This document shows positions 3,989 to 18,408 of a DNA stretch of 64,000 nucleotides, piece by piece; the first letter of the stretch is position 1, and every line of letters starts with the position of its first letter. The position numbers were made by a program, and so were the translations under genes. The notes below the pieces were generated by a model. The model ran no database searches. It saw only the letters and a list, made by a program, of their open reading frames with translations, and was not told where the DNA came from. This DNA comes from an uncultured Desulfatiglans sp. (GTDB lineage: Bacteria; Desulfobacterota; DSM-4660; Desulfatiglandales; Desulfatiglandaceae): contig LR026961.1 of NCBI GenBank assembly GCA_900498135.1, positions 898,399 to 962,398 of the forward strand. Direction: 5' to 3'.

Positions 3989-4479
3989 GGTGCTTTAAAG
4001 AACCACTCCTATACGAAGAGGTGCTTCTGGATAAGGCATGAAAGCTGTGCCTATCCAGAGGGCTTCTTGGGATACCATCGAATTTCGATCATTTTTGAAA
4101 GCATCTTGTCGACCTGCCCGTCACCCTGAGAAATCCGAGGTACAGGTGCGATGCAGGCCATTGTTTTTTTGGCGGCGTTGCGCAGCCGCCATGAAAAGCC
4201 GTCAGAACACTCATGGACCCTATCCCACCCTCGATCCCCACGGAGTAAAGGGCACGCCTCGTCTTGACAATGCTGGATCTGAACATTTCCTGCAGGACTA
4301 TTCGCATGCTTTTGGAAATGGGCATAGACGCAGCGAGTGCGGTGAACCTATCTCTTTCATCGAGGAGATCGGTCGTTTGGACTCATTGGAACAGCCGCCT
4401 TTGAATGCGCCTGCCTGTGTAATATGCCGCCCTTCAGTTGGAACCATGTGCAAGAATGCTCACGAGGAGGAATTCATCT
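3989..4479. other. Intergenic region, no gene supported
   Basis: About 490 bp between enolase and the lipid-synthase block. Open frames here lack ribosome sites and plausible protein composition. It holds a bulged hairpin at 4027-4058 after enolase and a GC-rich hairpin near 4169-4190 whose T-run precedes rather than follows the stem. It presumably contains the promoter of the downstream operon, but no convincing -35/-10 pair was found. Confidence 0.5.
4027..4058 (+). terminator. Possible weak terminator after enolase
   Basis: CTGGATAAGGCA pairs with TGCCTATCCAG (one bulged A), 39 nt after the enolase stop. No strong T-run follows, so factor-independent termination is doubtful. Confidence 0.3.
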
Positions 4480-4728
4480 ATGCCCTATGACGCATCGAAA
4501 GATCAGGTGCTGGACACCTGGGAAAACGAGGAAACAGGGTTGCTGATATCGATCAATCGCTACGGGGATGGTGAACCTAAACTGCAAATCGGACCCCGAA
4601 CCTTCACGAAGCGGGACGGGACCAAGGGAACGATGAAATCGGGACGGCTGACGGCGGAGGACGTCGCCTGGCTTCGAGACATCATCGACGATATCCAGGA
4701 AAAGCTGAATGTCTACATTCAGCAGTGA
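4480..4728 (+). CDS. Small PC4/YdbC-like putative nucleic-acid-binding protein
   Basis: An 82-residue protein. The order of elements, LLISINRYGDGEPKLQIG, then FTKRDGTKG, a short linker and an amphipathic C-terminal helix (WLRDIIDDIQEKL), resembles the PC4 coactivator/YdbC fold, where a four-stranded sheet followed by a helix binds single-stranded DNA as a dimer. This is pattern recognition, not a search result. The start ATG has a strong ribosome site (GAGGAGGAATTCATCT). It is the first gene of a same-strand run and ends 93 nt before the first ketosynthase, so it could be a regulator or just a neighbour. It may equally be an uncharacterised conserved protein. Confidence 0.55.
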   Translation: MPYDASKDQVLDTWENEETGLLISINRYGDGEPKLQIGPRTFTKRDGTKGTMKSGRLTAEDVAWLRDIIDDIQEKLNVYIQQ

Positions 4729-4821: not shown

Positions 4822-6066
4822 GTGAATCCGAATGCGGTCGCCATCACCGGAATCGGTATGATTTGCCCATTGGGCATCGATACCCCTACGTGCTGGAAAA
4901 ACATGCTTCAAGGTACGGCCGGCATAAGACCCATTACGAAATTTGATCCTGTCCGTTGTCTCAGCCGTATCGGAGGGGAATTGCCCGAGGCATACCCGGA
5001 TTATGAACGCACTCATCTGTCGCATCGCCTTCTCAAACACGGAACCTTGGCGACTCGTCTGGCCCTCCTGAGCAGCCTGGAAGCCATGAGAGATGCAGCC
5101 TTGGAACCGGGACAACTGGACGCGGACCGCGCAGGTGTCATCACAGGCTGTGGAGGATCGACCGTTGGCGACGCCTTGATTCCGGTCGGTGAAGAATACA
5201 ATCGGCGGCCCTTCGCTCATGGCATGCTGAATGCCCCAGCCGCCGCTATCCGTATGACTCTCGGCTTCAGAGGGCCTTCTTTCAATGTAGCTACAGCCTG
5301 TGCGTCCGGTGCTTATGCCGTGGGTCTGGGCTACGATTACATACGACATCAGGGTGAACTCTGTGTTGCAGTGGGTGTCGACACCATGCTCTCAGAAGAG
5401 ACCGTACAAGGTTTCAGCAGGTTGATGGCACTCTCCGAACTGAACGAACACCCGGAAAAGGCCAGCCGTCCCTTTGATCGAAAACGGACGGGTTTCGTGC
5501 TGTCCGAGGGTGCTTGCGCGGTTATTCTGGAATCGCTGCCCCATGCCGTCAAACGTGCTGCTCGCATTTATGCGGTCATGTCGGGACATGCAATGACTTC
5601 AGAGGCTTTCAATATCATCGCACCAGAGCCCGATGGACTGGGAATGGCCGAGACCATGGAGAAGGCCATCGTCAATGCGGGAATTCAAAAAGACCTGATC
5701 GGGTACATCAACGCCCATGGAACATCCACAGTGCATAACGATCGCGCTGAAACCAGCGCCATCAAAGCAGTTTTCGGTGGAAGAGCCTGGCAAATCCCTG
5801 TCAGTTCGCAGAAATCCATGATCGGGCATACGATCGGCGCTGCCGGCGCCATCGAATTCGCTGTGACGGCGCTAAGCCTTCGGCATCAGGTCTTGACGCC
5901 GACCATCAATTACGAAGAGCCGGATCCGGAATGTGATCTCGACTATGTGCCCAATCAAGCAAGACGCGTCCTGAGGCTGGACGCAGCCATCAGCAACTCT
6001 TTTGGTTTTGGCGGACACAATTCTTGTATCGTCCTCGAAAGACACACGACACCTGCCGGGGAATGA
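4822..6066 (+). CDS. Beta-ketoacyl-ACP synthase II-type ketosynthase (active)
   Basis: Condenses an acyl thioester with an extender carried on ACP; FabF/KSalpha family. At 414 residues it is full length. The catalytic triad is intact: Cys160 in TACASGAY, His299 in NAHGTSTVHND and His336 in QKSMIGHTIGA, followed by the glycine-rich NSFGFGGHNS. The start is GTG with GGAG upstream; an ATG just before lies in another frame. It shares a near-identical N-terminus (GIGMICPLG, CWKNML, GIRPIT) with the defective ketosynthase at 9180, indicating gene duplication, so the two may form a heterodimer. The block carries its own ACP and transferase, so this is probably a specialised enzyme rather than the housekeeping FabF. 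The product is unknown. Confidence 0.9.
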   Translation: MNPNAVAITGIGMICPLGIDTPTCWKNMLQGTAGIRPITKFDPVRCLSRIGGELPEAYPDYERTHLSHRLLKHGTLATRLALLSSLEAMRDAALEPGQLDADRAGVITGCGGSTVGDALIPVGEEYNRRPFAHGMLNAPAAAIRMTLGFRGPSFNVATACASGAYAVGLGYDYIRHQGELCVAVGVDTMLSEETVQGFSRLMALSELNEHPEKASRPFDRKRTGFVLSEGACAVILESLPHAVKRAARIYAVMSGHAMTSEAFNIIAPEPDGLGMAETMEKAIVNAGIQKDLIGYINAHGTSTVHNDRAETSAIKAVFGGRAWQIPVSSQKSMIGHTIGAAGAIEFAVTALSLRHQVLTPTINYEEPDPECDLDYVPNQARRVLRLDAAISNSFGFGGHNSCIVLERHTTPAGE

Positions 6067-6120
6067 CCCCGCCGCCTGAACGGATTTTTGTTAGAGATAC
6101 TCACTTTTTTTGGAGGCAAC

Positions 6121-7221
6121 ATGCAGGGGAGGAATGTCTATATTACTGGAATCGGATCGTTTTCTCCTGGAAACCCCGTCCCTTTTGATGAAATCGAAGA
6201 AGTCCTGGGCCCGCTCACCGATGGTCCACCCAAATTGATGAAGCGACTGGACCGAATGCGAAAGGTCATGCGGGAGCTCCTGGGTATCGAATATTCCTAT
6301 TACGCCATCGATCGAAAAACGCGGGAAGCCACCGAAACCAATGTGTCCATGAGTGTGAAAGCAGCTCAAAAGGCCCTGCAGATGGCCGGTATTGAGGCTG
6401 TTGACGTCGATCTGATTATCTATGCAGGGATCCTCTACGATTATCTTTGCCCTCCTCCAAGTGTGCTCGTCCAGGACGCCCTCAAAATCCCTCGCTGTGC
6501 AGAAATGTCGATCTATTCCAACTGCACATCCATCTATAAGGCGCTGCAGGTCGGCAGTGACCTGATCGCCAACGGCCGATACCAAAACGCCCTGCTGGTG
6601 ACTTCCCAGATGTCCTCGGCTTTCCTCAAGGCGGAGATATTCAATCAGAAGGTCATGACCGAGCAACAGGTCGTGCTGCGCTGGTTTCTGAGCGACGGCG
6701 CCGGGGCTCTGGTGTTGACCGCCGAGAAAAATACACGCCCCTCGCTGGAGGTTGTGGATACCTATCTGGAATCGGTAGGGATGGGACACAAACCTCCCAT
6801 GCGCCACATGATGGGTGCTATCAACTTCCATCCTCTGCAAGTTTACGAGAAAGGGTGGCACCATCTGGAACAGGACCTCATGACCGTCAGCAAGCTCGCG
6901 CCCGCCCTGGGCGAAAAGGGCTTTAAGCGGATGATCGATCAGACAGGGCTGAATGTAGGGGACGTGAAGTGCTTTTTCGTCAATATCCCAACCAAACATC
7001 TGATGGATCTCACGATAAATTACCTCCGAAAGCACTGGGGTGTCGATCTCCCTTTCTATACCAAATTGAGCACGCGCGGCTACCAGGGCGCCCCGGCTAT
7101 CATTATCGCACTGGATGATTATTTTCAGACAGAAGACCTCCAGATCGGCGACACTCTTGTCAGTTTCGTAACGGAATCGAGCAAGTGGATGCACGCTGGA
7201 TTCATTTTGAAATACTGCTGA
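6121..7221 (+). CDS. KAS III-like ketosynthase with altered catalytic residues
   Basis: A 366-residue thiolase-fold protein of the FabH/KAS III group, expected to prime chain growth or transfer an acyl group. The nucleophile is Cys135 in YSNCTSIYKAL. The usual His in HQAN and Asn in GNTS are not evident: the matching places read FVNIPTKHL and TRGYQGAPA. This could mean acyl transfer without decarboxylative condensation, as in some KAS III-like acyltransferases (inference). The start ATG has GGAGGCAAC upstream; an earlier in-frame start has no ribosome site. It lies 54 bp after the first ketosynthase, in the same operon. Confidence 0.75.
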   Translation: MQGRNVYITGIGSFSPGNPVPFDEIEEVLGPLTDGPPKLMKRLDRMRKVMRELLGIEYSYYAIDRKTREATETNVSMSVKAAQKALQMAGIEAVDVDLIIYAGILYDYLCPPPSVLVQDALKIPRCAEMSIYSNCTSIYKALQVGSDLIANGRYQNALLVTSQMSSAFLKAEIFNQKVMTEQQVVLRWFLSDGAGALVLTAEKNTRPSLEVVDTYLESVGMGHKPPMRHMMGAINFHPLQVYEKGWHHLEQDLMTVSKLAPALGEKGFKRMIDQTGLNVGDVKCFFVNIPTKHLMDLTINYLRKHWGVDLPFYTKLSTRGYQGAPAIIIALDDYFQTEDLQIGDTLVSFVTESSKWMHAGFILKYC

Positions 7222-7303
7222 AGGCGGCCTTTGGAAATCGGATAGCCGCCACGAGGCGATATGTCTAAGCCTCCCAATTTCTCCAACGAAAGCGTCGTTT
7301 GCC

Positions 7304-8032
7304 ATGCCTGATAAATCGAAACATCTGATTGCTTCCTCGATGCACAGCGACATCCTCGTGCTAACCATCACCAACCCTCCCAACAATCTCATGCCGCCCG
7401 CCTTCTTCAACGAACTCCACTACCACTACCAACACATGATCTCACCCGAGGTCAGCGCCGTAATCTTTACCGGGGAAGGACACGTCTTCTCCAAAGGCGC
7501 TGATCTTGCCGCCATGGATACCGATGGAACAGCATCCAGTGAAGAGCGGTTTGTTTTCGCGAATGACCTCATCAATGCCGTTTCGCGTCTGGACAAACCT
7601 GTCATCGCTGCCATCAACGGAGCCTGCCTCGGGGGCGGGTTCGAACTGGCCCTTGCCTGTCACTTGAGACTATCCATCCCGAAGGCCCGTCTCGGATTGC
7701 CCGAGACCTCCATCGGACTGGTGCCGGGACTTGGCGGCCTGCAACGGCTGATTCGGCTTGCCGGCGAAACCAGGGCCCTCGAGATGGTCCTTTTGGGGGA
7801 CATGATTTCCGCCGAACAGGCCGCGGACTGGAACCTCATCAACCGCATTCTTCCGAAAGAGACCTTTTTCGAACGGGTTCTCCTGTTTACCAAGACGGTC
7901 CTGACTGGTTCGAGGGAGGCCATCGCCGCGGTGCTTGAACTCGCGGCGGGTATGCGCGAACAGGACGATATCAGACAGACGTTTGAAACCGCTCGACGTT
8001 TCACAAAATTGGTGCGAAATAGAATGAAATAG
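7304..8032 (+). CDS. Enoyl-CoA hydratase/isomerase (crotonase) family protein
   Basis: A 242-residue crotonase. The oxyanion-hole segments FSKGADL and GACLGGGFELAL are present, and both hydratase glutamates are kept (Glu114 in GGGFE, Glu134 in GLPETSIG), so hydration or dehydration of an enoyl/3-hydroxyacyl thioester is likely. In this operon it could replace a FabZ-type dehydratase, working on ACP- or CoA-bound chains with the dehydrogenase at 11995 (inference). It ends 3 bp before the phosphopantetheinyl transferase gene. Confidence 0.85.
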   Translation: MPDKSKHLIASSMHSDILVLTITNPPNNLMPPAFFNELHYHYQHMISPEVSAVIFTGEGHVFSKGADLAAMDTDGTASSEERFVFANDLINAVSRLDKPVIAAINGACLGGGFELALACHLRLSIPKARLGLPETSIGLVPGLGGLQRLIRLAGETRALEMVLLGDMISAEQAADWNLINRILPKETFFERVLLFTKTVLTGSREAIAAVLELAAGMREQDDIRQTFETARRFTKLVRNRMK

Positions 8033-8035
8033 GTT

Positions 8036-8734
8036 ATGTTTTTTGTTTATCGGCCATTCCCACCTTGCACATCACAGAAACCGATCCTGGCGGCAGTAGG
8101 CAAAGCCGACGATCTCTCGGAGCATGCTGTTTTTCCCTGCCCTGAAGAATGGGCGGCTGTTCGGCGCATGCAGTCATACACAAGAAGGCGGGAGTGGATA
8201 GCGTCCAGGGCCGTTTTGAGAATCCTGACGGCCCTGACAACAGCATGCGACCACCCTCTTGATGCAAAAATCATCAAGAACTGTTACGGTCGGCCCACTG
8301 TCCGGCTGGTCAAGCAGGGGGTATGGGTTGACGTTGCGTGCTCTATTTCGCACAAGGAAGGATGGGTCGCCGTCTGTCTTGCTGAGGACGGTGTAACGGC
8401 TGTGGGAATCGACATCGAGACCGTTTCCGAAAGACCCGTTCGGCTGGCGGGCGCTTTCAGCCACGAGAAGGATTGCGCGGCGGGCATCGAAGATGCCAGA
8501 AGAAAATACACCTTGCTCTGGAGTTGCAAAGAGGCGGCTTCGAAGGTTTTGGGTCTGGGGCTTCTTGTCGATTACAAGAAGATAGTCGCCGTAGTCGACG
8601 ATGCCGGGCGTATCCACATCGATTTCAACGGCGAGGTAGAGATGGAAGGGACGGCTATGCATCTGGACGATGCGGTGGTCGTTTGTTGTCGTTCCTGCCG
8701 CCCGCTTACGAACAGGAACGGCTTCTCAGCTTGA
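8036..8734 (+). CDS. Sfp-type 4'-phosphopantetheinyl transferase
   Basis: Transfers the phosphopantetheine arm from CoA to a serine of an acyl carrier protein. The 232-residue length fits the Sfp group rather than the short AcpS group. Motifs are GRPTV, CSISHKEGWVAVCLA, VGIDIE (Mg-binding acids) and WSCKEAASKVLG. It starts 3 bp after the crotonase gene and precedes the ACP gene, its obvious substrate. A dedicated transferase inside the operon supports a specialised rather than housekeeping pathway. Confidence 0.9.
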   Translation: MFFVYRPFPPCTSQKPILAAVGKADDLSEHAVFPCPEEWAAVRRMQSYTRRREWIASRAVLRILTALTTACDHPLDAKIIKNCYGRPTVRLVKQGVWVDVACSISHKEGWVAVCLAEDGVTAVGIDIETVSERPVRLAGAFSHEKDCAAGIEDARRKYTLLWSCKEAASKVLGLGLLVDYKKIVAVVDDAGRIHIDFNGEVEMEGTAMHLDDAVVVCCRSCRPLTNRNGFSA

Positions 8735-8855
8735 TTGATGCGAAACGCTTTCGGCGGCGCAGCCATAATGATTGCGTCCGGAGGGCAAGGGCGATCCCTC
8801 TGACCTGTCTGTTAATCACTTGTTGGTGTAGAGTGCAATATCGGAGGAAAAAGGT

Positions 8856-9176
8856 GTGACACAGGCGCTTAACAACGAGGAAAAGAAACAAATTGCTCAA
8901 GAGATTCTGAATTTTTTGGCTGATGAATTTGAAATTGACGCCAGTGAAATTACCATGGACACAAATATCATCGATGATCTTGGCGGAGACTCCATTTTGT
9001 TTCTTGAAATGATCGAAGAGTTCAAAGCAAAATACCATATTGAACTTGAGGTCAGAACGATCGGCCAATACATGCTGAAAAATCCCATTTATACTGTAGG
9101 GGAAACCATCCAGGCCATTTACACCATCATCGAAAAAGGTGAACAGCTGCTGGAAGAACTGAATCTCGGAGACTAG
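8856..9176 (+). CDS. Acyl carrier protein
   Basis: A 106-residue carrier protein. The attachment site is Ser46 in DDLGGDSILFLEM, with the rest of the four-helix pattern around it. At position +1 it has Ile instead of the common Leu (DSI, not DSL), as seen in many specialised carriers. It starts with GTG after TCGGAGGAAAAAG. The coding sequence is visibly richer in A and T than its neighbours. The defective ketosynthase starts 3 bp after its stop, suggesting translational coupling. Confidence 0.9.
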   Translation: MTQALNNEEKKQIAQEILNFLADEFEIDASEITMDTNIIDDLGGDSILFLEMIEEFKAKYHIELEVRTIGQYMLKNPIYTVGETIQAIYTIIEKGEQLLEELNLGD

Positions 9177-9179
9177 CCG

Positions 9180-10451
9180 TTGCAAGATATATTATCCAGC
9201 TCGCCAAGCGCCCGCCCGCCTGTCGCTGTGACCGGAATAGGGATGATCTGCCCGCTCGGCGTGACGGTTCATGAGTGCTGGAAGAATATGCTTAACGGTC
9301 AGTCCGGGATTCGCCCCATCACAGCATTCGAGACATCCGGCTGCTCAACGACAATCGGTGGACAACTCCCTGAGGCTGCATCGCAGATAGAAAAGAAACG
9401 GACACCAAAGCGGCTCTTCAAACAGACGATTCGCTCCAGTCGTCTGATACGCGTATGCGCTCAAGACGCCATGACGGACTGCGGCGTCGAACTCAGAGGT
9501 CTGGACGCAACACGCTGCGCCATCATCGTCGGCACCAGCGGCTCGAGTGTCGGAAACCCTCTGGATTTGACGGATGCCGAAACGGAGCGCTTCAGGATCA
9601 TCCGCGACATGGTCAACGCTCCGGCAGCATGGCTCAGCATCGAGTTCGGATTCAAAGGGCCGGCTTTCACCCTTTCGGCCGCAGCCGCATCCGGTATTTA
9701 CGCAGCGGCCACAGGGGTCGACCTTATCCGTCATGGGTGGGCAGACCTGGTTGTCGTCGGCGGTGTAGACACCGTCTTATCAAAGAACAGCCTCATCAAA
9801 GCCAACCATCTCAAAATGCTCTCCACCAGGAACGCCGAACCCGAAAAGGCCCTGCGCCCCTTCGATATCCAGAGAGACGGATGTCTTCTCTCGGACGGGG
9901 CCTGTGCCGTCGTCCTGGAATCTCTTACCCATGCCCGATCCCGAAACGCGCCCATTTACGCATGGATCCAAGGATATGCCGCCTGCTCGGAGCCGTACAG
10001 CCCCCATTCAGAAGCCCGAGACGGAGCGGAAATGGCTCGGACGATGGAACGGGGGCTTCAGGACTCCGGGATGCCCAAAGAATCCATCGGGTATCTCAGC
10101 GCTGCCGCCACATCCGCCGTCATCAGCGATGCCCTTGAATCGCAGGCCATTCGAACCGTTTTCGGAAGTCACGCCGAAGCACTGGGCATCAGCGCCATCC
10201 AGTCCATGATCGGTCACACCATGGGCGCCTCGGGTCTCATCGCTTTATCGACGACGGCCCTGGCACTCAAGAACCAGATGGCGCCTCCCACCATCAACTA
10301 TGCCTTTCCGGATCCAGCATGCAATCTCGACTACATACCGAATTCCATGCGAAAATTGAACGGGGTCGAAGGTGCCATGGTCAACGCGTTCAGTATCGGG
10401 GGGCATAACGCCGTGGCGGTTCTGAGCCGCCAGGATTCAGTCCAGGAATGA
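9180..10451 (+). CDS. Ketosynthase homologue lacking catalytic residues (chain-length-factor-like)
   Basis: A 423-residue FabF-fold protein in which the nucleophilic Cys is Ala169 (LSAAAASGIY) and the first His is Ala309 (LSAAATSAV), while the second His (His346, QSMIGHTMGA) and the glycine-rich C-terminal loop remain. It cannot act as a normal condensing enzyme. By analogy with KSbeta/chain length factors of type II polyketide and aryl-polyene systems, it probably pairs with the intact ketosynthase at 4822 to set chain length; classical chain length factors carry Gln instead of Cys. The start is TTG, 3 bp after the ACP stop, with GGAG upstream; no better in-frame start precedes the first beta strand. 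Confidence 0.8.
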   Translation: MQDILSSSPSARPPVAVTGIGMICPLGVTVHECWKNMLNGQSGIRPITAFETSGCSTTIGGQLPEAASQIEKKRTPKRLFKQTIRSSRLIRVCAQDAMTDCGVELRGLDATRCAIIVGTSGSSVGNPLDLTDAETERFRIIRDMVNAPAAWLSIEFGFKGPAFTLSAAAASGIYAAATGVDLIRHGWADLVVVGGVDTVLSKNSLIKANHLKMLSTRNAEPEKALRPFDIQRDGCLLSDGACAVVLESLTHARSRNAPIYAWIQGYAACSEPYSPHSEARDGAEMARTMERGLQDSGMPKESIGYLSAAATSAVISDALESQAIRTVFGSHAEALGISAIQSMIGHTMGASGLIALSTTALALKNQMAPPTINYAFPDPACNLDYIPNSMRKLNGVEGAMVNAFSIGGHNAVAVLSRQDSVQE

Positions 10452-10635
10452 GCGGCCGCCTATTGGAGCAGCGCACCCCGTGCAATCGAAACCTGAGACC
10501 CCCGAAGGTCTTTTTTTCTTCTCGCAGCGCTTCGCAGACGGCACACCATTCATCAGACGCCGCATCAGTGCCCTCAGTCGAAGGGCTGCCAGGCCGGGGG
10601 GCATGGACCGCAACCTCCCCGTAAAGGATATCCGG

Positions 10636-11076
10636 ATGAGAGAAACCTGCTTTTCCGATCTGGAAGTTCCCATCCGGGTGCGGTATTGCGAAACGGACAA
10701 AATGGGGGTCGTCCACCATTCGAATTACATCCGTTACATGGAAATCGCTCGGATGGCCTGGCTGGAAGCCATCGGATGCCCATTTACCCAGATCGAACGT
10801 GGAGAGACCCGACTCATGATCACGGAGATCTCCTGCACCTATCGCGCGCCGGCAACCTTCGACGATTTCCTCCAAGTGCATACCATTTTAGAAAAATGGA
10901 ATAAATTCAGGCTTTCTTTCCTATTTCTCATCAAAAAGGAAGGCCGGATCATCGCCAAAGGAGGGTCCTCGCTTGCCGCAGTCAGCATTGAGGGCTATCC
11001 CGCCCCTCTTCCAGAAATCCTGCTCAAGCGGTTATCGGAAATCGATGTAACGTCATCCCAACATGAGCATCACTGA
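10636..11076 (+). CDS. YbgC/4-hydroxybenzoyl-CoA-type hot-dog thioesterase
   Basis: A 146-residue single hot-dog domain predicted to hydrolyse an acyl thioester. The family signature YCETDKMGVVHHSNYIRYME contains the catalytic Asp and the conserved GVV-H-NY. The start was chosen at the ATG following AAAGGATATCCGG, giving the usual family length; an upstream GTG at 10480 would add an atypical 52-residue tail. It overlaps the acyltransferase gene by 14 bp. The likely role is to release the finished chain from ACP or CoA. Confidence 0.85.
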   Translation: MRETCFSDLEVPIRVRYCETDKMGVVHHSNYIRYMEIARMAWLEAIGCPFTQIERGETRLMITEISCTYRAPATFDDFLQVHTILEKWNKFRLSFLFLIKKEGRIIAKGGSSLAAVSIEGYPAPLPEILLKRLSEIDVTSSQHEHH

Positions 11077-11995
11077 TCTCACAGCACAGAATCGCCGGGT
11101 CTGCATCCTCGTCCCAGGCATCGGCACTTCCTATCTGAAGGCGCTTCCGCTCGTCTCGAAAAGTTCTCTCTTCCGGGAAAACTGTGATAAAGCCCGCATC
11201 GCGACCATCGTCGGACAAATGGACCCCGGATCGGAAGACCACGGCCCTGCATTGACGGACACGCTCGATAACCAGCGGCTTTCCTACGTCATCAACTGCA
11301 CCATGTGCGATCTATACGCTGCACGCGGGATAGATGGGGAAGTGGTTATCGGATACAGCATGGGGATTTATGCAGCCCTCTACCACGGCGGGTTCTACAC
11401 GTTCGAAACCGGACTTTCCATCCTTGAAAATGCCCACACCCTCGCCTCGGAATGGTGTCTCAAGAGCGGCAAAACCTATGGCATGGCCCTGATCCTGGGC
11501 CTGACCCATCCCGAAATCCAGGATCTTCTCCTGGCCACGGTCGGCAATCGGCTGGAGATCGCCATGCACAACGGCAAGCGGAACTTCGTCCTAGCGGGCG
11601 AGCGCGCCGCCCTCGAGTCGTGCATGGAAAAGGCTCTGCATTCAGGGGCACTCGGCACAAGACCCATTCAAACGGCGCATCCTTATCACAGCTCCCACCT
11701 GGAACCTATTGCTGGTGATTTTATCGCCTTCGTCAAAGGCTTGAACATGGCGTCCCCCAAAAGAACGGTGCTCTCCTTGATCGACGGAAGACCGATTGGC
11801 CAAGAACAAGCGGCCGAAGTCGTCGTCCGATCCATCCATACCCCTCTTCATTTCGATTGGGCCATTCAAAATGCCGTCCGAATGCACGGTATCTCGACCT
11901 GCCATGAAACCGGCCCGCCGACATCAATGGCCCGGCTGACCCATTACATCGACCGGAAACTGATCGTCCATTCCTTCGAACAGGAGGAACGGTGA
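11063..11995 (+). CDS. FabD-like acyltransferase with altered substrate-selecting residue
   Basis: A 310-residue malonyl-CoA:ACP transacylase-fold protein. The nucleophile elbow is GYSMGIYAAL (Ser99) and the catalytic His is His209 in AHPYHSSHLEP. The N-terminal FPGQG motif reads VPGIGTS, and where FabD has the Arg that holds the malonyl carboxylate (MRG), this protein has NAH, with Ala124 aligned to the Arg. It may therefore load an uncharged acyl group or hydrolyse stalled chains rather than transfer malonate (inference). It overlaps the thioesterase gene upstream and the dehydrogenase gene downstream (TGATG), which points to one transcript. Confidence 0.8.
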   Translation: MSITDLTAQNRRVCILVPGIGTSYLKALPLVSKSSLFRENCDKARIATIVGQMDPGSEDHGPALTDTLDNQRLSYVINCTMCDLYAARGIDGEVVIGYSMGIYAALYHGGFYTFETGLSILENAHTLASEWCLKSGKTYGMALILGLTHPEIQDLLLATVGNRLEIAMHNGKRNFVLAGERAALESCMEKALHSGALGTRPIQTAHPYHSSHLEPIAGDFIAFVKGLNMASPKRTVLSLIDGRPIGQEQAAEVVVRSIHTPLHFDWAIQNAVRMHGISTCHETGPPTSMARLTHYIDRKLIVHSFEQEER

Positions 11996-13224
11996 TGAGA
12001 ATCGGGTTGGCTGGATATGGAAAGATGGGCGCGTCGATCTTCCGGTTGCTCTCTAATACCTATCCCTCTATAACGGTTCTTTGCATCGATGAAACCGAAG
12101 CGCACACCGCAGGCAAGAAGCACACGAAACGCCTTGAACGGGCCTTGAAAAGCGGCCAAATCTCCGAAACTGCCTACCAAACCTCGAGAAGAAGCATCCT
12201 CTTCACCTCGCACGTGCAAGATCTCGCCGGATCGGATGTCGTCGTCGAGGCCGTCTACGAAGATCCCGTGGTCAAGGCAACACTCTTCAAACAACTGGAA
12301 TCCGTTCTTTCGTGGAAGGCCCTGCTGCTTTCCAATACGTCTTCCATTTCCATCGCCTCTCTGGCCAAGCACCTCCGCCATCCGGAGCGATTTTGCGGAT
12401 TGCATTTTTTCTACCCCGTCGAACTGATCGACCTGATCGAAATCCTGGAAGGGCCTGAAACCTCTCCTGAACTGCCCGCGTACCTCAAATCCTGGTGCCA
12501 CAGCCTGGGGAAGAACGCCATTCTCGCAAAGGATGCACAAGGTTCTGTTGTCAATGCCATCCTCAGTTATTATTACCTCGAAGCGCTTTACATCCTGGAA
12601 GAGGGGTTGGCCCTCCCAAGCGCAGTGGATGCCGCCGCCCGGCCCTTGTTCTATGTCGGCCCTTGTGAATCGATGGACGTCATCGGCATCGACTTTCTCT
12701 TCGCCGCCATGCGGCGCGCTGGCCAACCGGGCAGCCTGCTCCCCGTGGACTGGGACGGACAAGGCCGCCAGCCATGCGAAAAACAAGGATTACGGGCGCC
12801 TGTCCTCTTTGAAAGACTACTTTCTCAAGGCCGGACCGGGAAAAAAAAATCACGCGGAATATACCTCTACGACGGCCAAAAGGCCTCGGATGATGCACCA
12901 GGTTTTTATAGGCACCGATCCGACGGCAACTCGGCGCCCGAACACCCTGCCCAAGATGAACTGCTGACCAAAAGACTCCTTTATTCCGTTTTGAATGGCA
13001 CCCTTTACAGCCTGCAGCAGAAAAAGGCATCGCTCGAAGACCTGGATCTCGCCGTCAAGGAAGTCCTGTTGATGAAACAGGGGCCCTTCGGGATGATGAG
13101 AGACATGGGTTTGGAAGCGGTCTTGCGGGACTTTTCCCTTCTGGCAGCCCGGGCAGGAAAACGATTCGAAATTACGGATCCGGATCTGCTGGCCTGGACC
13201 ATCACACACGATCCACAACGCTGA
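11995..13224 (+). CDS. 3-hydroxyacyl-CoA dehydrogenase family protein
   Basis: A 409-residue NAD-dependent dehydrogenase. A Rossmann motif is present (GLAGYGKMGASIF), followed by the catalytic pair His137 (GLHFFYPVE) and Glu149 (LIDLIEIL), with Ser/Asn in LLSNTSS. Two C-terminal helical regions follow, as in the long-chain family. It interconverts 3-ketoacyl and 3-hydroxyacyl thioesters. In this operon it could serve as the ketoreductase, since no FabG is present. An ATG overlaps the previous stop (TGATG); a GTG one codon earlier is also possible. It is the last gene of the run. Confidence 0.85.
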   Translation: MRIGLAGYGKMGASIFRLLSNTYPSITVLCIDETEAHTAGKKHTKRLERALKSGQISETAYQTSRRSILFTSHVQDLAGSDVVVEAVYEDPVVKATLFKQLESVLSWKALLLSNTSSISIASLAKHLRHPERFCGLHFFYPVELIDLIEILEGPETSPELPAYLKSWCHSLGKNAILAKDAQGSVVNAILSYYYLEALYILEEGLALPSAVDAAARPLFYVGPCESMDVIGIDFLFAAMRRAGQPGSLLPVDWDGQGRQPCEKQGLRAPVLFERLLSQGRTGKKKSRGIYLYDGQKASDDAPGFYRHRSDGNSAPEHPAQDELLTKRLLYSVLNGTLYSLQQKKASLEDLDLAVKEVLLMKQGPFGMMRDMGLEAVLRDFSLLAARAGKRFEITDPDLLAWTITHDPQR

Positions 13225-17980: not shown

Positions 17981-18198
17981 TCTTGCTGATTGGGTGAGCA
18001 ATCGCCCTCCTTTGTCCCGCACTGAAACACCAAGGCCCTGGATCCAAATCTCCCTGGCCGGCATCCACCGGCCGGCGCCAGCCCCGGCAAACCAGCCTCA
18101 TGGCCCCATCGCCACCCTCAATCGTCCGGCAGGCGCCGTTCCCTGCGCCCTTACCGGACGGGACTGAATCGAGGAACCCGGAACCGCGTTCTGATCCC

Positions 18199-18250
18199 GC
18201 CGCACAAGCAAACGTGCAGATTGACGCAGAGATTGGCAAAAAAGACCATT
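18199..18250 (+). repeat. Dispersed repeat, copy 2 (right half only)
   Basis: A 52-bp piece identical to the right half of the full element that follows (from GCCGCACAAGC to AAAAAAGACCATT). It sits 16 bp before that element, forming a truncated tandem pair. Confidence 0.85.
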
Positions 18251-18266
18251 GGACCAACGTCAACCC

Positions 18267-18408
18267 GTTTCCAATCCGGAAATGCGGATTTTTTGCCAAG
18301 ATCAAGGAAATCCAGCGTTTGTGCGGAGGCGACCTGCAGGTCGCCGCACAAGCAAACGTGCAGATTGACGCAGAGATTGGCAAAAAAGACCATTTCCGGA
18401 TTGGAAAC
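18267..18408 (+). repeat. Dispersed palindromic repeat, copy 3 (most complete)
   Basis: A 142-bp element bounded by perfect 18-bp terminal inverted repeats, GTTTCCAATCCGGAAATG at the left and its reverse complement at the right. The middle holds the perfect palindrome GGCGACCTGCAGGTCGCC (18328-18345) within longer imperfect arms (CGTTTGTGCGG facing CCGCACAAGCAAACG). The whole unit can fold into one long stem, as in a MITE or a bacterial REP/BIME element. It lies between the divergent glycosylase and J-domain genes. No flanking target duplication was recognised. Confidence 0.85.

Follow-up and report, generated by a model that had tools for sequence, protein, structure and literature searches.

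A degenerate FabF-type ketosynthase as a probable chain-length-factor-like partner of its intact paralogue

The gene cluster and its relatives

The window analysed here is a 64-kb stretch of DNA, which at 4822-13224 carries a gene cluster encoded on the + strand. The cluster begins with KS1 (4822..6066), an intact FabF-like ketosynthase with Cys160-His299-His336, Lys331, a GFGG gating loop and Glu at the position equivalent to FabF 265. It is followed by a KSIII-like protein (6088..7221), a distant relative of StlD/DarB that keeps Cys146 and has Asn299 and Tyr332 where the catalytic His and Asn would be expected. Next are a member of the enoyl-CoA hydratase family (ECH, 7304..8032) with both catalytic Glu residues, likely to carry out a dehydratase step, a 4'-phosphopantetheinyl transferase (PPTase, 8036..8734) with a weak Pfam match that is above the cut-off, and an acyl carrier protein (ACP, 8856..9176) with Ser46 in a DLGGDSI motif, 99% identical in the sister species. 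Directly 3' of the ACP gene lies KS2 (9180..10451), a catalytically degenerate FabF-like protein; the KS1 and KS2 genes are thus 3.1 kb apart, with the KSIII, ECH, PPTase and ACP genes between them. The cluster continues with a YbgC/FadM-type 4HBT thioesterase (10480..11076), whose true start is likely further in, a FabD/MdcH-like acyltransferase (AT, 11063..11995) that retains the GYSMG Ser and His209 and likely loads malonate on the ACP, and a 3-hydroxyacyl-CoA dehydrogenase (HCDH, 11992..13224) that retains His138 and Glu150 and is likely to reduce beta-keto groups. Active-site residues are complete in ECH, HCDH, AT and ACP, and no enoyl reductase gene was found in the cluster.

Two further features of the window were noted. 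A small ORF 5' of KS1 (4438-4728) is 99% identical in the sister species and has no Pfam match; it possibly encodes a PC4-like DNA-binding protein. At 18190-18400 there is a tandem, partly inverted intergenic repeat, with identical copies of 53 nt located 144 nt apart. About 50 more copies are found genome-wide, many of them 94-96% identical over 135-140 nt and some in tandem, and the repeat looks like a dispersed element of the REP/MITE type.

Related clusters were located using the KSIII-like gene as a specific probe. This gave four loci from delta-proteobacteria (L040-L043) and ten from Bacteroidetes (L044-L053); in a sweep of 395 genomes of the phylum, strong matches were rare (4 at E < 1e-100). 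Viral contigs yielded no relative. The Asn and Tyr of KSIII are shared by all cluster relatives, in both phyla, for which that stretch is sequenced, whereas StlD/DarB-type relatives of the same phylum have Cys-His-Asn. Judged from this pattern, the conserved Cys-Asn-Tyr site looks like that of a distinct chemistry. G001, a second species of the same genus, also has the whole cluster. L040, L041 and L042 contain KS1, KSIII, ECH, ACP and KS2, and the latter two also AT and HCDH, whereas L043 and those Bacteroidetes loci that extend that far have a single intact KS of the family. Every KS2-bearing cluster has an intact KS1.

On the 3' side of the L040-L042 clusters are genes for a LolD-like ATPase, an FtsX/MacB-type permease, a LolA-like protein and a probable outer-membrane protein. 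Since these Lol-type export genes adjoin the clusters, the gene content suggests that their product is envelope-targeted. None of the export genes was found in the 64-kb window, and elsewhere in the genome to which it belongs there are only permease homologues of 29-31% identity.

Several observations concern the wider family. The Bacteroidales versions (L044-L053) combine one intact KS with KSIII, two crotonases, HCDH, ACP and AT, together with B12-dependent radical SAM and haem-binding proteins, and some of them adjoin aryl-polyene/flexirubin-like KS genes. A protein of about 320 aa that could not be assigned with confidence to any Pfam or NCBIfam family is encoded in KS1/KSIII clusters (L040 11403-12365, L043 2455-3405) and beside nine StlD/DarB-type KSIII genes of the phylum; from its position we take it to be a DarA-like partner. 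Finally, G160, another genome of the phylum (L079 9011-10168), has a lone KSIII of the C-N-Y type (48%) with neither KS1 nor KS2, which on inspection of the sequence adjoins a probable radical SAM protein and RND/MMPL-like transporters.

The active site of KS2 and its variation

The ORF at 9180..10451 is genuine and encodes a protein of 423 aa. It has a TTG start with a GGAG 8 nt upstream, which overlaps the 3' end of the ACP gene. KS2 is a full-length FabF-type protein, matching the ketoacyl-synt N and C models of Pfam, and its top-scoring NCBIfam model is fabF, with a score below the cut-off of that model. In BLASTP, KS1 and KS2 share 188 of 406 residues (46%) with 1 gap (E 6e-122). The initial annotation described their N-termini as near-identical, which is an overstatement: N-terminal windows of 40 residues contain 21-24 identical positions, fewer than the best window (27/40), which is found in another part of the protein.

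Its reading of the active site, by contrast, was borne out. Both pairwise and multiple alignment place Ala169 of KS2 opposite Cys160 of KS1 and Ala309 opposite His299, with the second His retained (His336 to His346). The flanks of the nucleophile position (GFKGPAFTLSAAAASGIYAA) align free of gaps, and the Cys is restored by no alternative KS1/KS2 alignment, an outcome named in that annotation as grounds for refutation. Moreover, the active-site Lys331 of KS1 is Gln341 in KS2, and the gating loop changes from GFGG to SIGG, the gating Phe becoming Ile. KS2 therefore departs from the FabF signature (Cys-His-His triad, Lys and GFGG), having Ala-Ala-His, Gln and SIGG. In the set, 23 positions never vary among the intact KSs; KS2 retains 14 of them and differs at 9 (C163, F202, Y299, H303, G304, T307, S333, K335 and F400 in FabF numbering), most of which are active-site or gating residues. 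Reference CLFs also lack many of these invariant residues, but carry Gln, Asp and Arg as replacements. The claim that KS2 has Ala at the nucleophile position rather than the usual Gln also stands: Gln is present in all reference CLFs and in no KS2 orthologue.

Despite these changes the fold is predicted to be intact and of the FabF type, because a confident AlphaFold2 monomer model (pLDDT 89.4, pTM 0.92) has structural matches in FabF and in the KS chain of actinorhodin (Foldseek, VIA-align; Z about 63), with FabF among the closest PDB structures. Two FabF-like chains (B and C) are present within one entry in PDB 9s5h/9s5i, which may be a relevant pair; a literature search found no publication on these entries.

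KS2 was sampled in four lineages, three of which come from metagenome assemblies or bins; L041 and G398, with identical match figures, were counted as one. KS2 of G001 is 96% identical and has the same replacements. At the nucleophile, first His, second His and Lys positions, KS2 reads A/A/H/Q in the genus of the window, C/N/H/K in L040 and S/N/H/K in L041 and L042; C/H/H/K is found in the same alignment in all KS1 proteins and all single KSs. Thus the first His is replaced in all KS2 lineages (A/N/N/N) and the nucleophile is non-uniform (A/C/S/S), and parsimony gives two changes at each of these sites. From the aligned residues, loss of the first His is taken to be a trait common to the KS2 clade, and the Cys was lost later, probably twice. 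The second His is retained in all KS2 and the Lys in three of the four lineages; the L040 orthologue retains Cys and GFGG as well as its Lys. Some residual KS2 chemistry may thus persist.

Origin and conservation of KS2

A tree was built from 60 sequences, comprising FabF, KSalpha and CLF (annotated Streptomyces plasmids), APE/flexirubin-like KSs and their neighbours, and the cluster KSs. KS1 and KS2 each form a monophyletic clade and the two are sisters (100/99) with similar inner branching, and together they are sister to the KS that related clusters have as a single copy. This sisterhood persists when extreme branches are dropped, and after removal of the active-site columns support is 99 for KS1+KS2 and 93 for KS2. 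Five Bacteroidales proteins encoded beside APE/flexirubin-like KS genes, which are 'CLF-like' by position only and served as stand-ins for ApeC, sit on a very long branch. AU tests, with the groups named after the first tree had been seen, reject KS2+CLF (p-AU 0.001), KS2+KSalpha+CLF (p-AU 0.002) and KS1+single KS to the exclusion of KS2 (p-AU 0.001). Membership of KS2 in the CLF clade is thereby ruled out, as is a duplication predating the split from the single-KS clusters. Since KS1 and KS2 are sisters and the constrained trees are rejected, these sequences are best explained by a duplication inside the cluster family, after that split, and not by kinship with classical CLFs. The duplication proposed in the initial annotation is upheld by this result. 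Its suggestion of a CLF-type partner fares less simply, since in a tree that includes FabF, KSalpha, CLF and APE-like KSs, as it had advised, KS2 falls outside the CLF groups as the sister of KS1.

KS2 is a maintained gene under purifying selection. Its frame is unbroken in every orthologue (five genomes, of which two are the congeners), and dN/dS between the two congeners (Nei-Gojobori) is 0.214, compared with 0.223 for KS1; values for other cluster genes are 0.03 (ACP), 0.14 (HCDH), 0.24 (ECH) and 0.29 (AT). Because the KS2 replacements recur in a second species and its dN/dS is no higher than that of KS1, both a sequencing error and a decaying pseudogene are excluded as their source.

Conservation is unevenly distributed. 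Across four lineages KS2 is less conserved overall than KS1 (51% vs 61%), and the deficit is greatest in the regions equivalent to FabF 257-286 and the gate region 390-406. The gates of FabF are its loops 1 and 2; in sequence order, the two gating loops comprise residues 265-275 and 399-402 (PMC7138838). Loop 2 and the gate loop of KS2 are degenerate in this region-specific comparison with KS1. In contrast, the equivalent of FabF 114-150, which includes an F[RK]IIR[ED]M motif, is better conserved in KS2 than in KS1 (identity 0.63 vs 0.29 in the best window), a difference that none of 2000 column permutations reached. The stretch 108-137 lies at the dimer interface and chain pocket in KS-CLF pairs. 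By analogy, the loss of a protein's own gates and catalytic residues, with the partner-pocket segment kept, is the pattern that a chain-length-factor-like role predicts.

These data bear on other readings of KS2. That it is a decaying pseudogene or an annotation artefact, as its active-site decay and TTG start might indicate, is scarcely credible given the intact frame, the selection on it, the upstream GGAG and conservation that is locally stronger than in KS1. It is highly improbable that KS2 is an active ketosynthase of altered mechanism, for instance one that in some lineages combines Asn-His with a Ser or Cys. The complement of L040 (Cys/Asn/His/Lys with GFGG) and the Ser/Asn/His of two other lineages would accommodate this, but KS2 of the window, with Ala/Ala/His/Gln and no gating Phe, has no nucleophile, and therefore a function common to the clade cannot depend on one.

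We also consider it improbable that KS2 is a stand-alone homodimer supplying an acetyl-ACP starter by decarboxylation of malonyl-ACP, in the manner of KSQ or of the decarboxylating KSs of beta-branching. The nucleophile is replaced in three of four lineages with the second His kept in all, and the Bacteroidales layout of two ECHs, KSIII, ACP, AT and KS resembles a beta-branching cassette. However, KSQ-type decarboxylases, in which Cys is replaced by Gln or Ser, keep both His residues, and in every KS2 the first His is Ala or Asn; in FabF the two hold the thioester carbonyl together (PMC7138838). The usual Gln is absent from all KS2 (A/C/S/S), the gate and loop 2 are degenerate, and a beta-branching cassette was rejected since KSIII is without the His and Asn found in its relatives among the KSIIIs and shows no HMG-synthase-type signature beyond weak model matches. 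A regulatory or acyl-ACP-binding protein, acting as a homodimer or as a partner of KSIII and unrelated to the function of KS1, is unlikely too. The fold of KS2 is kept, its gene directly follows that of the ACP, and KSIII might need a partner because it is without the standard Cys-His-Asn site. Yet KS2 is a FabF-type subunit, nearest to KS1 in sequence and tree, and in FabF-type dimers the counterpart of its best-conserved segment meets the partner FabF-type subunit. Against a KS1-KS2 partnership stands the distance of 3.1 kb between the genes, unlike classical KSalpha/CLF pairs.

Proposed role of KS2 and comparison with known systems

We consider it probable that KS2 serves KS1 as a CLF-like, catalytically dead partner of independent origin within a type II lipid/polyketide synthase. 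The CLF-type partner of the initial annotation is thus retained as regards function, given the degenerate catalysis, purifying selection, constant presence of an intact KS1 and conserved interface/pocket segment. It is not retained as regards CLF-clade membership, since KS2+CLF is rejected, the second His has not become Arg and the first His has become Asn or Ala, not Asp. KS2 probably works like a CLF and, on its sequence, is not a member of that clade.

A KS/CLF is an obligate heterodimer, one of whose subunits is KS-like and inactive, and a channel at its interface sets chain length (PMC12664062). In ApeO/ApeC both subunits contribute residues to the lining of the cavity, which ApeO His138 and ApeC Glu142 close (PMC8358021). 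For the present cluster we infer a comparable arrangement. KS2 would have arisen from KS1 by duplication inside the cluster family in a delta-proteobacterial lineage and lost its condensation chemistry, beginning with the first catalytic His and later, at least twice, including the nucleophilic Cys, and would have lost gating loops 1 and 2, while being kept in a heterodimer with KS1 as its non-catalytic subunit. The PPTase would activate the ACP, AT would load malonate on it, and KS1 would perform the decarboxylative condensation with malonyl-ACP. By homology to FabF and KS-CLF pairs, the 114-150 segment of KS2 would reach the dimer interface and form the end of the acyl pocket of KS1; because it would close that pocket, KS2 may, like a chain length factor, contribute to the choice of chain length or substrate. 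HCDH would reduce the released beta-ketoacyl chain and ECH would then dehydrate it. FabF 265 is Asp in fatty-acid KSs of the releasing kind and in polyene KSs, and Asn in actKS (PMC7138838); by analogy, the Glu of KS1 fits reduction between condensations. An unsaturated or polyene-like product is plausible, since the cluster is without an enoyl reductase.

More tentatively, the cluster could represent a new type II condensing machine of anaerobic delta-proteobacteria, in which an independently evolved CLF-like KS2 at various stages of decay (Cys-Asn-His, Ser-Asn-His, Ala-Ala-His) works with KS1, a Cys-Asn-Tyr KSIII and HCDH and ECH of the beta-oxidation type in the synthesis of a lipid or polyene destined for the envelope. 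The usual account of chain length factors traces them to a single, ancient duplication of a ketosynthase of fatty-acid synthesis. An independent, younger duplication with a dead partner at several stages of decay would test the path from active homodimer to obligate heterodimer, and could show which residue goes first and whether selection keeps pocket shaping. It would also point to an uncharacterised class of type II lipid/polyketide clusters in anaerobes that would be missed by searches for CLF motifs or for adjacent KS-CLF genes.

Compared with FabF (KAS II), KS2 has the same fold and length, and FabF is among its closest structures, but it is without the Cys, first His, Lys and gate Phe. 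Like the CLFs (KSbeta) of type II PKSs (actinorhodin 1TQY and four Streptomyces plasmid CLFs), it has a KS fold in which the nucleophile Cys and first His are replaced and the gating Phe is lost, and it is clustered with an intact KS and an ACP. Unlike them, it comes from a separate duplication (AU p 0.001), its clade has Ala, Ser or Cys and not Gln at the nucleophile site, and the first and second His, which are Asp and Arg in reference CLFs, are respectively Asn/Ala and kept. Classical CLF genes lie directly downstream of the intact KS in clusters with aromatic cyclases, whereas KS2 is not adjacent to KS1 and its cluster has a reducing, CoA-type HCDH and ECH. In PqsB-PqsC and the CLF domains of PUFA synthases, too, an inactive KS-like subunit or domain stands beside an active one, in a FabH-type or type I context and with separate origins. 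A literature search found nothing specific for ladderane clusters as a match. The polyene KS-CLFs ApeO-ApeC (aryl polyene) and Iga11-Iga12 (ishigamide) resemble the present system as reducing type II systems with a KS-CLF pair, ApeC and Iga12 being compared by description and not by sequence, and KS1 shares with polyene and releasing KSs an acidic residue at FabF 265 that actKS does not have. They differ in that here there is no FabG-type KR, with HCDH and a crotonase instead, and in a KSIII of the StlD/DarB type. Similar in outline are the non-actinobacterial 'FAS-FAS' KS pairs, with two FabF-like genes per cluster that are without typical CLF motifs; the survey describing them required pairs within 2000 bp and proposed or assumed one ancient duplication (PMC10132072). 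KS1 and KS2 lie further apart than that limit, and a separate, later duplication is supported for them. On present sequences we therefore file the KS1/KS2 pair as an independent, convergent case, CLF-like in its putative working and not a CLF.
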